A stretch of 41,426 nucleotides of DNA from an uncultured Verrucomicrobiota bacterium (GTDB taxonomy: Bacteria > Verrucomicrobiota > Verrucomicrobiia > Limisphaerales > UBA9464). The stretch lies in contig CAJAHH010000084.1 of the NCBI GenBank assembly GCA_903939515.1, forward strand, positions 1 to 41,426, given 5' to 3'. The notes beneath the pieces are model-generated. The model was given only the letters and a program-made list of their open reading frames with translations, searched no databases and was not told the origin of the DNA. Of the stretch, positions 18,197 to 41,426 are shown in pieces (position 1 is the first letter of the stretch; the number at the start of each line of letters is the position of its first letter). Position numbers and translations under genes: made by a program.

Positions 18197-18317
18197 GGGG
18201 TCACGATGGCTGGAAGTTTTCCAAAATACCAGCCACCGCGCAGGAAAATGGACCGCTGCGGAAGTCATGCCCCCGGTCCCCCCAGCTGGCAGGCATGCCC
18301 CAAGAAACCGGCCCCCG

Positions 18318-18487
18318 CCGGAACGATTCAGTTGGGAGGAAAGGGATGGCGTGGCGGATTCTTTCGCAAGACGAGGCGAGAGCGAGGCGCGGGCCAATGG
18401 AAGGCCCGTAACGAGTGAACAACGAAGCTCTTGCGGAAGAAGACGCAGCCAGCACGACCGATCCAATTGAATCGTTCCGGCTAAGAA
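18318..18487. repeat. Family-1 inverted-repeat (MITE/REP-like) element, compact copy
   Basis: Terminal inverted repeats are CCGGAACGATTCAGTTGG (18318-18335) and its complement at 18463-18480, with one mismatch in 18. Subterminal parts also pair: CTTTCGCAAG (18361-18370) against CTTGCGGAAG (18430-18439). The centre has CGGGCC/GGCCCG around AATGGAA, so the whole unit can fold into one long imperfect hairpin. The left 45 bases and right 40 bases match the ends of the larger element at 35136-35660; right-end similarity continues through GGCT-AGAA to 18487. There is no coding capacity and no visible target-site duplication. Confidence 0.75.
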
Positions 18488-27248: not shown

Positions 27249-27701
27249 TGATAAACACCCTGACTCACTCCCACTTCCAAGCCCAGCCAGAACCCACCCG
27301 CCCCATCCTCCGCACCCACCAGCAAAGCCCTCACAACCGACACCCATTGATCCGCCGGATCGCCGCAATGAGACTGGGCCTGCTGAACACGAAGCGGAGC
27401 GGGACCGGGCCGGAGCGAGCATTGGAACGTCGACACCCTGATATCCCCATCGCGCGGCCGCGCGAAAGCCGAGCCTGTCCCCACGTTCCCTGCGAGCGCA
27501 GGACCGATCCCGCGAAGCCTACGCCCAGCAACGCACCAAAAAACCACCCCCCTTCGCAGCCCACTTCTCATTACTAGAAATAATTGAGAGTGACCCCTTT
27601 TGTGTAAATAGGTGGGACCGACCCCGAGAGCTGTCACCGACCCTCAGTTGACGGGACGCTTTCCTATTCCAAGATGCACCCGTAGCCTGTTCCTCATCAC
27701 C
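27249..27701. other. Intergenic region with family-2 repeat element
   Basis: No supported gene; the open frames crossing it are C-rich strand artefacts. It holds an inverted-repeat element (27399-27513), then an AT-richer patch with a small hairpin (CTCATTA ... TAATTGAG, 27567-27589) and the leader of the haem protein gene. Confidence 0.6.
27399..27513. repeat. Family-2 inverted-repeat element, copy 1
   Basis: The 22-bp termini at 27399-27420 (GCGGGACCGGGCCGGAGCGA then GC) and 27492-27513 are inverted repeats with 16 of 22 positions matching. The interior contains GCGCGGCCGCGC, a self-complementary core near 27456-27467, followed by GAAAGCC. Order and sequence of these parts match the unit at 41277-41387, including sequence just beyond the right end (AAGCC-ACG-CCAGCAACG). 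Confidence 0.65.
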
Positions 27702-34668: not shown

Positions 34669-34938
34669 TTACTTGGCTGCGACGTCGGCCTTCTTCCAGG
34701 TACGACGCGGGGCCTTGGTTACCATGCCGGCCTTCAAAGCCTTCACGGAGACTCGCATGTAGCGAACCTCTCCACTGGGCAAGAGCGCCTTCACGCGCTG
34801 CAAGTTCGGGTAGAACTTGCGCTTAGTGATCGCGGTGACGTGGGTACCAATACCACCTTTTTTCTTGGCCTTACCCGAGCGCCAGATGTGATTGCCTTTC
34901 ACCGGGCGGCGACCCGTCAGCGGACAAATGCGTGCCAT
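34669..34938 (-). CDS. rpmB: 50S ribosomal protein L28
   Basis: The 89-residue protein is a full-length bacterial L28. The start MARICPLTGRRPVKGNH is typical, followed by the basic segment KFYPNLQRVKALLPSGEVRYMRVSVKALKAG. L28 joins the large subunit late in assembly. It is an isolated gene, not linked to rpmG as in many bacteria, and ends at three successive hairpins. No Shine-Dalgarno sequence is visible before the ATG. Confidence 0.96.
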   Translation of the reverse strand: MARICPLTGRRPVKGNHIWRSGKAKKKGGIGTHVTAITKRKFYPNLQRVKALLPSGEVRYMRVSVKALKAGMVTKAPRRTWKKADVAAK

Positions 34939-35135
34939 AATCGAAGGATTCTTAAATTAAAGGAACGGATGACCTACCAGCCCGAGGAGCCTTGGTGCAA
35001 GCAGCATTTTCAGATACGTGAGCGCTGAGCGAATAGCTTCATGCCTTCTTGAGCCCATAAACAGGTGGCTCAGAGCGTATTCAACGCCCTCTGAACCCGA
35101 ACAATTTTTTGTTGGATCGGTCCGGCGGAGCGGGC

Positions 35136-35660
35136 CTGAGCGGTAATGATTCGTCGGGAGGAAATTGATGCCGTGGCGAATCTTCTGAAAGCGCCAACGT
35201 CTGCGGTGCCGGACCGCTCGGAGATCGGTCCCTACCTCGGAAGTCTTCGGGCTACATCCAGGGGTTTTACCATAAACTCAGCCTTGCCTGGGCACCTCCG
35301 AGGTAAGGCGATTTCTCCGAAAGCGTCACGTCCACAGACATGGCCCACCGCAGAGCCGGACTGCCGCAGGGCCGGACCGCTCGGAGATCGGTCCCTACCT
35401 CGGAAGTCTTCGGGCTACATCCAGGGGTTTTACCATAAACTCAGCCTTGCCTGGGCACCTCCGAGGTAAGGCGATTTCTCCGAAAGCGCCACGTCCACAG
35501 ACATGGACCACCGCAGAGCCGGACCGCCGCAGGGCCGGACCGCTCGGAGATCGGTCCCTACCTCGGAAGTCTTCGGACTACATTCACGGTCGTAACACAG
35601 GGTCGTACCACAGCCTGAGCCAACACGACCGATCCCACTCAAAATCGTTCCGGCTTAGAA
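35136..35660. repeat. Family-1 inverted-repeat element, enlarged copy
   Basis: The left end (35136-35183: CTGAGCGGTAATGATTC, then GGGAGGAAATTGATGCCGTG) matches the left end of the compact copy at 18318 in about 80% of positions. The right end (ACACGACCGATCC at 35624-35636, ATCGTTCCGGCTTAGAA at 35644-35660) matches that copy's right end almost exactly. The two ends are imperfect inverted repeats (12 of 16 terminal bases). The compact copy's centre is absent and replaced by 2.3 copies of a 163-bp repeat. A 12-bp duplication (GGTCGTA-CACA) follows at 35588-35613. Confidence 0.7.
35208..35584. repeat. 163-bp tandem repeat, about 2.3 copies
   Basis: Copies start with GCCGGACCGCTCGGAGATCG at 35208, 35371 and 35534. 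The first two are full length and differ at only three positions that I can see; the third stops after about 50 bases. Each full unit holds inverted arms that pair 11 of 12 (35230-35241 with 35297-35308; 35393-35404 with 35460-35471), plus an inner CCAGG/CCTGG pair. This suggests a conserved stem-loop in DNA or RNA. Confidence 0.92.
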
Positions 35661-35720: not shown

Positions 35721-36767
35721 ATGCGTGAGACCCTGCGGTGGATTGAAGTCCTGGCGCTGTTTCTGGCGATAGTTCTGTCTCCAGGCCTCCGGGGCGATAC
35801 GCCGTCCTCGACGACGCGCCTGCCGGAGTTGATCCAAGTGCTTCGAACCCACCTCGACCTAGGCTCGGCGGAGTTCGAGGCCCAAGCCTCTCAAGCGTTG
35901 ATCGAACGATTCGGTGCCCGGCCGGTGCAGGAAGTCTCGAGCACTGGATCCACAAACAATCCAGCCCCGGAGCTAATCGCCCGGCGGGAGCGGCTCGACG
36001 GAGGCATTTTGTACCTCCGCATGGGCCGGGTAGACTTGGGATTGCCCACGGCACTCCGGGTCGCATTGAACGACAAGACGTGGTCCACCAACGCCTCCGG
36101 TCTGGTCCTAGACCTCCGGTTTGCTTCAGGCGACTCCCTGCCGGCTGCCGGCGAGACCGCCAGCCTCTTTTCCGACCGAACCGAGGCTATCCTCCACTGG
36201 GGTAGCAATTCGATTGCAGGCTCAGGCGCCCAGCGCCTCTGGAGCCTCCCTATGGCCGTCTTGGTCAACAACCGAACCCAAGGGGCTGCCGAAGCGTTGG
36301 CCGCCGTGTTAAGGCAAGAGACCGGAAGCCCTCTGGTCGGACAACCCACCGCCGGACGGCATGGAGTCTTCCGTGAGGTCGGCCTTGGAGACGGTACCCG
36401 CCTTCAGGTACCCGCAGGGCGCATCCGACTGGGCGATGGATCAACTTTGGCTGCGGGGCCTATCCCGCCGGACATTCGGATCCCGGTCCCGGAAAACACC
36501 GAACGTGGATTCATCAAAAACCCCATCGCGGCCCTCAAACCCAACGGAACCAATGGCATTAGCGGTGCCATGGGCTCTGCCCCCCTTCCACGACGCAAAG
36601 TCACTGAAGCCGATCTGGTTCGCGCGCAACGGAGCGAACCGAACGAGTCGACGAACCAGACCCATACAGTGGAAAAGGCCGCGGTGCCCGTCCGGTTGGC
36701 CGATCCTGTCTTGGCCCGAGCGGCGGACCTTGTTCGCGGGTTGAGCGCCTTCCAGAAGGCTCGTTGA
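35721..36767 (+). CDS. S41 (C-terminal processing) peptidase homologue lacking catalytic Ser and Lys
   Basis: The 348-residue protein has an N-terminal signal or anchor (LALFLAIVLSPGL). It then has the S41 core: GGILYLRMGRVDLG, GLVLDLRFASGDS, PMAVLVNNRTQGAAEALAAVL, and SPLVGQPTAGRHGVFREVGLGDG. In active CtpA/Tsp proteins the nucleophile lies three residues before the Glu of SASE and the base Lys 25 residues later. Here these positions are Gly188 and Arg213, with the 25-residue spacing kept. No PDZ domain is evident. It is therefore probably a non-proteolytic paralogue, for example a peptide-binding or scaffold protein. The C-terminal 80 residues are Pro/Asn-rich. It may have a leaderless mRNA. 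Confidence 0.78.
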   Translation: MRETLRWIEVLALFLAIVLSPGLRGDTPSSTTRLPELIQVLRTHLDLGSAEFEAQASQALIERFGARPVQEVSSTGSTNNPAPELIARRERLDGGILYLRMGRVDLGLPTALRVALNDKTWSTNASGLVLDLRFASGDSLPAAGETASLFSDRTEAILHWGSNSIAGSGAQRLWSLPMAVLVNNRTQGAAEALAAVLRQETGSPLVGQPTAGRHGVFREVGLGDGTRLQVPAGRIRLGDGSTLAAGPIPPDIRIPVPENTERGFIKNPIAALKPNGTNGISGAMGSAPLPRRKVTEADLVRAQRSEPNESTNQTHTVEKAAVPVRLADPVLARAADLVRGLSAFQKAR

Positions 36768-41140: not shown

Positions 41141-41202
41141 CCCGGTAAGGCTTCGATCTCCGAACGGAGCGCACGGGCCCCGGCGCTTTCGGAGAAATCG
41201 CC
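41141..41202 (-). repeat. Decayed relative of the 163-bp repeat
   Basis: Positions 41182-41202 are identical over 21 bases, in reverse orientation, to 35470-35490 inside the second 163-bp unit. Next to it, CGTTCGGAGATCG...CCTTACC on the minus strand resembles CGCTCGGAGATCGGTCCCTACC of the unit, with the stretch between shortened. It appears to be an internally deleted copy. Confidence 0.65.
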
Positions 41203-41276
41203 CTACCCCCTGAGCTGCCGCCTGACTCAAACAACCGGCACCGTCGCCCTAGCGACACAATTGCCCCCGGGCGGCA

Positions 41277-41387
41277 GCGGGACACGGCCGAAGCGAGCCT
41301 TGGAGGCGAACAAACCACCCCCTCGCGCACAGCGCGAAAGCCCCATCCTTTCAGAAGCCTCCTCAGCCCGCGCAGGCCGAGTCCCGC
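41277..41387. repeat. Family-2 inverted-repeat element, copy 2
   Basis: Termini at 41277-41298 (GCGGGACACGGCCGAAGCGA then GC) and 41366-41387 form a 22-bp inverted repeat with about 17 matches. Interior GCGCACAGCGC and GAAAGCC match the corresponding parts of the copy at 27399-27513. The outer flank GGAGCC-CC-GCAGCAAG also matches, so the homologous segment may reach 41410 or beyond the window edge. Confidence 0.65.
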
Positions 41388-41426
41388 GGAGCCCCACCGT
41401 GCAGCAAGCCACACGAGCCCCGGCGC

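Follow-up and report, generated by a model that had tools for sequence, protein, structure and literature searches.

Tandem REPIN-like units between the ends of a divided MITE beside rpmB in an uncultured Verrucomicrobiota bacterium: a probable case of nested repeats

The DNA analysed here, referred to as the window, is a stretch of 41,426 nucleotides from the draft assembly of an uncultured Verrucomicrobiota bacterium (160 contigs, 4.71 Mb; genome G000). Between rpmB, which is encoded on the minus strand, and a plus-strand open reading frame that we take to encode an S41-type peptidase, there is a composite element at 35140-35654 (Table 1). Its two ends resemble those of a compact repeat found elsewhere in the window, here called family 1, and its interior is a tandem array of a 163-bp unit. 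The first-pass annotation had placed the element at 35136-35660. An element is indeed present there, and 35140-35654 are its borders when it is delimited by its terminal repeats and its target triplets. Other repeats of the window include an 18-bp tandem repeat, CCTCACAAGGGACAGGCT, at 80-160 (4.5 copies, 98%), and a third repeat family at 27394-27536 and 41271-41412 (70% alike, E 5e-9), which is present in 20 of the loci examined and adjoins a Y1-transposase match in L100, L263 and L264.

Table 1. Parts of the composite element, its neighbouring genes and the compact family-1 copy (positions in the window).
Feature	Position	Strand	Basis
rpmB (ribosomal protein L28), divergent neighbour	34669..34938	-	match in 19/19 genus genomes; name from reading the translation
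Left target triplet TGA (TTA in G014, G002)	35137..35139	.	sequence and TNA rule
Left end of family 1, comprising the terminal inverted repeat GCGGTAATGATTC and the left arm as far as profile position ~49	35140..35187	+	alignment; profile 2-49 in G001 homologue
REP-b-like copy, 3' half, at left junction, CTGAAAGCGCC	35185..35195	+	sequence
163-bp tandem array, 2.3 units	35208..35583	+	Tandem Repeats Finder and REP scans
REP-a copy 1, exact, GTAGGGACCGATCTCCGAGCGGTCC	35211..35235	-	pattern scan
REP-b copy 1, 2 mismatches, tag GTAA	35303..35327	+	pattern scan
REP-a copy 2, exact	35374..35398	-	pattern scan
REP-b copy 2, 1 mismatch, tag GTAA	35466..35490	+	pattern scan
REP-a copy 3, exact	35537..35561	-	pattern scan
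Right end of family 1, comprising the right arm and the terminal inverted repeat CGTTCCGGC	35614..35654	+	alignment; profile 128-167 in G001 homologue
Right target triplet TTA	35655..35657	.	sequence and TNA rule
ORF read as S41-type peptidase, second anchor of the site	35721..36767	+	ORF and homologous sites in relatives
Compact undivided family-1 copy	18317..18481	+	searches and alignments

In alignments within the window, the left end of the element (35133-35191) matched 18310-18370 at the compact copy (74%, E 5e-3), and for the right end (35618-35660) the match was 18447-18487 (84%, E 7e-4). These matches are modest when taken singly, and both have the order and orientation of the compact copy. 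The split copy of the window falls below the threshold of the family-1 profile, and its homologue in a related genome (G001) passes the profile at both ends (model positions 2-49 and 128-167). Since the homologue fits the profile at both ends, the similarity to family 1 cannot be put down to chance, and the earlier statement that the ends are like those of the compact copy holds. The interior had been described as wholly different from that of the compact copy, which is confirmed, and as 2.3 copies of a 163-bp unit, in agreement with Tandem Repeats Finder (period 163, 2.3 copies, 98% matches). Each unit of the array comprises a head-to-head dimer of two short palindromes, REP-b and REP-a (96 bp including a 46-bp linker), and a spacer of 67 bp.

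Family 1 is about 165 bp long and near-palindromic, with short terminal inverted repeats close to GCCGGAACGATTC, and as judged by eye the ~165-bp sequence has no coding capacity. Used as queries, the compact copy gave 44 matches in this genome and a second copy gave 45, the latter search finding the family in 12 of the 19 genomes of the genus. Target triplets were compared at 57 of 75 two-ended copies, which were kept by eye after homologous sites and tandem-pair rows had been left out. Both flanks of these 57 loci favour T-N-A, and the middle base is identical on the two sides at 34 of them against 15.4 expected, a count that none of 20000 shuffles reached; the middle base is complementary in four of the 57, and other offsets have little or no excess. 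Since this agreement of the flanks represents a 3-bp target duplication, family 1 is a transposon family, namely a MITE that duplicates a 3-bp TNA target. Family 1 also occurs as tandem pairs, at L032 and L285, and relatives have one copy each at the corresponding homologous sites. In a search for a parent transposon by end pattern, no facing ends 0.7-3 kb apart were seen among about 100 of the 142 end matches, inspected by eye.

The two palindromes of the 163-bp unit, REP-a (GTAGGGACCGATCTCCGAGCGGTCC) and REP-b (GTAGGGCGATTTCTCCGAAAGCGCC), lie in opposite orientation, each beside a GTAG-type tag. When up to three mismatches were allowed, this genome was found to hold 73 REP-a and 87 REP-b, which is 160 REPs in 4.71 Mb, and reversed-pattern controls at the same setting gave no REP matches in it. 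From lists read by eye, roughly four fifths of the 73 REP-a and half of the 87 REP-b have the tag GTAG, the other REP-b tags being mostly GTGG or GTAA. In the dimer REP-b is followed by a linker and by an inverted REP-a, so that the two stand head-to-head with their tags outside; the linker measures 46 bp in the window array (35328-35373) and about 14 bp at many other loci. Judged by this layout, the 163-bp unit is a REPIN with its flanks, tandemly repeated. Hairpins are predicted for both REPs, with 81% and 80% of cells paired in the stems and double changes within the range of shuffles, in a set whose strands are mixed because the REP bodies are palindromic. At 41154-41207 the window also has a lone REPIN-like hairpin without tandem expansion, which includes an exact REP-b (41182-41206).

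Matches to the unit type were found in 13 of 30 genomes, all 13 belonging to the genus, and two of these have one weak match each. Among the matches listed, the exact 21-base core occurs mostly in metagenome-assembled genomes of Verrucomicrobia, the titles of which suggest freshwater, and in other genomes the cores listed are spaced by 48, 68, ~131-133, 150 and more. Single exact REP-a cores were seen, by record title and among the matches listed, in Neomarinimicrobiota (L139), Akkermansiaceae (L151) and Opitutaceae (L185); the genome titled Neomarinimicrobiota may be mislabelled or mixed.

The REPINs were presumably moved by an HUH (Y1) REP transposase. Y1 transposase domains are present in 18 of the 19 genomes of the genus. 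A scan for REP-a and REP-b at up to 6 mismatches of 25, reaching up to 1.5 kb to each side, found neither beside the domain at any of 39 Y1_Tnp loci (11 here and 28 of the genus matches, several of them cut by contig ends and two representing one gene). The identical scan was positive at 29 of 29 array loci and gave no hits in shuffled controls. This means that the usual link between REPINs and a neighbouring REP transposase was not encountered at these loci, and mobilisation would then have occurred in trans or by a gene that has been lost or was left unassembled. A weak protein match near a REP in L215, taken for a transposase gene, proved to be the third repeat family.

The site between rpmB and the S41-type gene differs considerably between relatives. 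In G007, G003, G018 and G015 it is a short intergenic stretch upstream of rpmB in which neither repeat is present. In G002 a nearly complete family 1 (profile 7-161) precedes REPINs that run to the end of the contig. This genome and G001 have 2.3 units in the split form, and G005 has a split form in which not even one unit is complete. The left end and the REP sequence of the split form are also present in G014 until its contig ends, and G017 has the right side of the split form on a separate contig (L063) with fewer units. The rpmB contig of G017 (L083, C59) departs near the family-1 left end into different sequence until the contig end, which represents either a further insertion or a join made during assembly. 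TTA is the triplet on the left side in G002 and G014 and on the right side in G000, G005 and G017, and the window element itself has unequal triplets, TGA on the left and TTA on the right.

We propose, with a probability of roughly 0.78, that the composite element consists of nested repeats. A family-1 MITE of ~165 bp, moved by a transposase recognising its terminal repeats, would have inserted at a TNA target between rpmB and the S41-type gene, and a REPIN, composed of two GTAG-tagged REP hairpins in inverted orientation, would then have joined this copy or inserted into it. The middle of family 1 may have been lost by deletion between short similar stretches (by eye, approximately GGCGRATTCT on the left and CAGCC on the right), and the REPIN together with its flanks would have expanded and contracted in tandem as the 163-bp unit, presumably through recombination or slippage. 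The sequence of insertion and deletion given here is the one we infer for this site. The proposal is supported by the fact that tandem units which include the flanks match the published REPIN clusters, as these are portrayed in the cluster passages of PMC3116915. Against it counts a left flank that is ~10 bp longer here than in G002, which would allow G002 and this clade to share one insertion or to stem from two. The unequal triplets of the window element, the 39 Y1 loci without REP-a or REP-b nearby and the double changes in REP stems, which do not exceed those of shuffles, also count against it. Insertion of one repeat into another followed by tandem expansion had also been suggested in the first-pass annotation, and it is borne out by sites that are empty, that carry family 1 and then REPINs, or that carry the split form with differing unit number.

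It could also be supposed that a role as structured RNA or as regulatory element accounts for the retention of family 1 or of the REPIN array at the rpmB-S41 site, since strong hairpins are predicted, the element sits between divergent genes and the split form has been retained in several species. A fold tool applied to 28 family-1 copies gives a common consensus hairpin of 39 pairs, nine of which have two-sided change (a script-made consensus fold, which yielded almost no family-1 structure, was not relied on). In 68 copies 91% of cells pair, and the 33 two-sided changes exceed those of all 300 shuffles (maximum 24). However, the covariation term is near zero (-0.12), and slid partners in the same 68 copies give 31-40 two-sided changes, as many as the true pairing. 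A shared hairpin is equally expected of a palindromic transposon, and the site is empty in at least four relatives. We consider maintenance as a structured element to be very unlikely. An RNA gene in the window was ruled against by Rfam, which gave no match there at the gathering threshold.

Another suggestion of the earlier annotation was a modular element, in which the inverted ends of family 1 mobilise whatever they enclose. In its favour, the window ends survive around another repeat, and pieces of family 1 lie on both sides of an array at L042 (by eye), L214/L305 and L175. However, most family-1 copies examined are without a right-side array, the interiors in the subset of copies viewed are native variants, deletions or REPINs with no cargo other than REPINs among them, and L332 is an internally deleted family-1 form that carries no cargo. 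Furthermore, the split form is confined to one identical site in all species having it, and the other two-sided loci differ structurally both from it and from each other, so that there is no sign that the split form has moved as such. The notion of swappable cargo is not supported by these findings, and we consider it very unlikely.

Contacts between arrays and family 1 occur at other loci as well, and for this reason the possibility that the 163-bp repeat is always found without family-1 ends can be set aside. In partial sets taken from family-1 search matches, with the window element, L022 (G000) and L078 (G007) outside the counts, a right-side array was found at 3 of 38 family-1 copies in G000, where two adjoin the right end and one lies at profile 89, and at 9 of 17 in G002. 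Eight of the latter share one orientation, seven of them at profile 161-167 and the other at 150, and the ninth, at 95, has the opposite orientation. There was no right-side array at any of 13 copies in G003 (one of them truncated where its contig ends), eight in G018 or 14 in G007. Taken from the side of the arrays, a family-1 profile match lies within 60 bp at 5 of the 41 array places of G000, or six with the window element. This may be an undercount, since 14 of the 41 places lie no more than 60 bp from the end of a contig or locus, and for the same reason it is probable that the arrays explain part of the fragmentation of the assembly.

One junction recurs in the same orientation, in which the right end of family 1 (profile 161-167) is followed within about 25 bp by the array at unit positions 39-68. 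It was found in 11 rows representing 10 sites (L057 and L162 are homologous), and the tally becomes 11 with L306 and 12 with L291, where 48 bp lie between; in loci chosen by REP content, such contact counts are tallies and give no rate. When flanks were compared among the junction loci, no homology was found beyond L057/L162, and L130 is without family 1 and without array where L057 (G000) and L162 carry both. In the opposite orientation, L022/L078/L120 represent one site with contact at the right end, and L304/L175/L207 represent another with contact at profile 95. Interior contacts are those of L004/L060 and L137, L067, L211, L140 and the window element; L128 and L223 are spaced contacts, and L177 and L308 are left-side contacts. 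We tentatively raise the possibility, doubtful as yet, that REPINs dock preferentially, and in a specific orientation, at the right terminal repeat of a MITE that is already in place. If true, this would mean that the insertion of a mobile repeat is guided by a second one, and that MITE homologues with and without an array represent REP insertion before and after the event, which is otherwise rarely seen.

The junction at these 11 sites and the twelfth at 48 bp, as well as the G002 arrays, eight of nine in one orientation, would also be accounted for if a REPIN array had at one time been taken up at the right end of a family-1 element and the larger element had since transposed by means of the family-1 terminal repeats. 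In a tree of 98 family-1 copies the composites are slightly clustered, needing 10 changes against 13.2 when shuffled (2 of 500 shuffles as low). However, 10 changes are still needed, although a single composite clade is not rejected (AU p 0.09, with 5 of 95 inner branches starred), and the tree does not decide between the two. Homologous loci also speak against joint movement. At L037 (G000) and L302 (G002), whose left flanks align at 94% over 609 bp, family 1 is plain in G000 and is followed by an array in G002, providing a second line of evidence for insertion of one repeat into the other. A weaker case is the compact copy of the window (L031) and L306, the array-bearing and likely homologous locus of G002, which match over 424 bp at 85%, 185 bp off the element. 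Such pairs imply that arrays came to, or left, resident family-1 copies. At L060 (G000) and L137, with flanks at 96%, the array meets family 1 at 89 in one species and at 131 in the other, and L022 (G000) and L078 (G007) represent one family-1 copy with differing unit numbers. These homologous loci fit the arrival of arrays at resident family-1 copies, and the later erosion of those copies by them, better than the movement of a whole composite, and we regard joint movement as unlikely. It is possible that at individual sites an array was lost in G000 rather than gained in relatives, the direction of change being read from a few homologous loci that are mostly anchored on one side, since arrays break contigs.

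TNA target duplication is a property of MITEs of the IS1031 group of the IS5 family. Family 1 is like these MITEs in being short and non-coding, with terminal inverted repeats and a 3-bp TNA duplication, and is unlike them in that no autonomous parent was seen among the end matches inspected. Mosaics of REPs are known as BIMEs, and the window array resembles them in having REPs at regular intervals whose orientation alternates, whereas it differs in its sequences, in its phylum and in being nested in a MITE. A verrucomicrobium, Opitutus terrae (O. terrae), enters the comparison with GTAG-tagged REPs given below.

BIMEs are described in the abstract of PMC2817692. For REPINs, the cluster passages of Bertels and Rainey 2011 (PMC3116915) give the inverted REP pair as the unit, with ordered clusters that repeat the flanks too, the largest exceeding 700 bp, and with three clusters adjoining RAYT genes. 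The window array shares with these clusters the inverted REP pair as unit and the tandem repetition including flanks, and it differs in that no RAYT gene was found near REP-a or REP-b (39 Y1 loci). The spread of REP elements is called poorly understood in the abstract of PMC8266576. In this genus, for which many draft genomes exist, individual MITE copies can be compared in the presence and in the absence of REPIN arrays, and arrays at one site differ in length, so that junctions and target choice could be read directly.

GTAG-tagged REPs, as outlined in the relevant sections of Di Nocera et al. 2013 (PMC3733652), consist of a short palindrome and form head-to-head dimers with the tags outside and tandem groups that include the flanks; O. 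terrae is a named host, and the REPtron is absent from some REP hosts. REP-a and REP-b are like them in tag, palindrome, head-to-head dimers and flank-containing tandem groups, a likeness of architecture. Insertion of REP dimers into long palindromes is reported there for A. variabilis and H. neapolitanus, so that such nesting is already known and the window element is a new example. Among the matches listed from the open-licence PMC literature, none was recognised as describing the pairing of family 1 with these REPs. Compared with the host palindromes of Di Nocera et al. 2013, family 1 also stands alone in dozens of copies and duplicates its TNA target. What may be new is therefore that the host palindrome is a TNA-duplicating MITE with an existence of its own, and that the arrays repeatedly meet its right end in one orientation.
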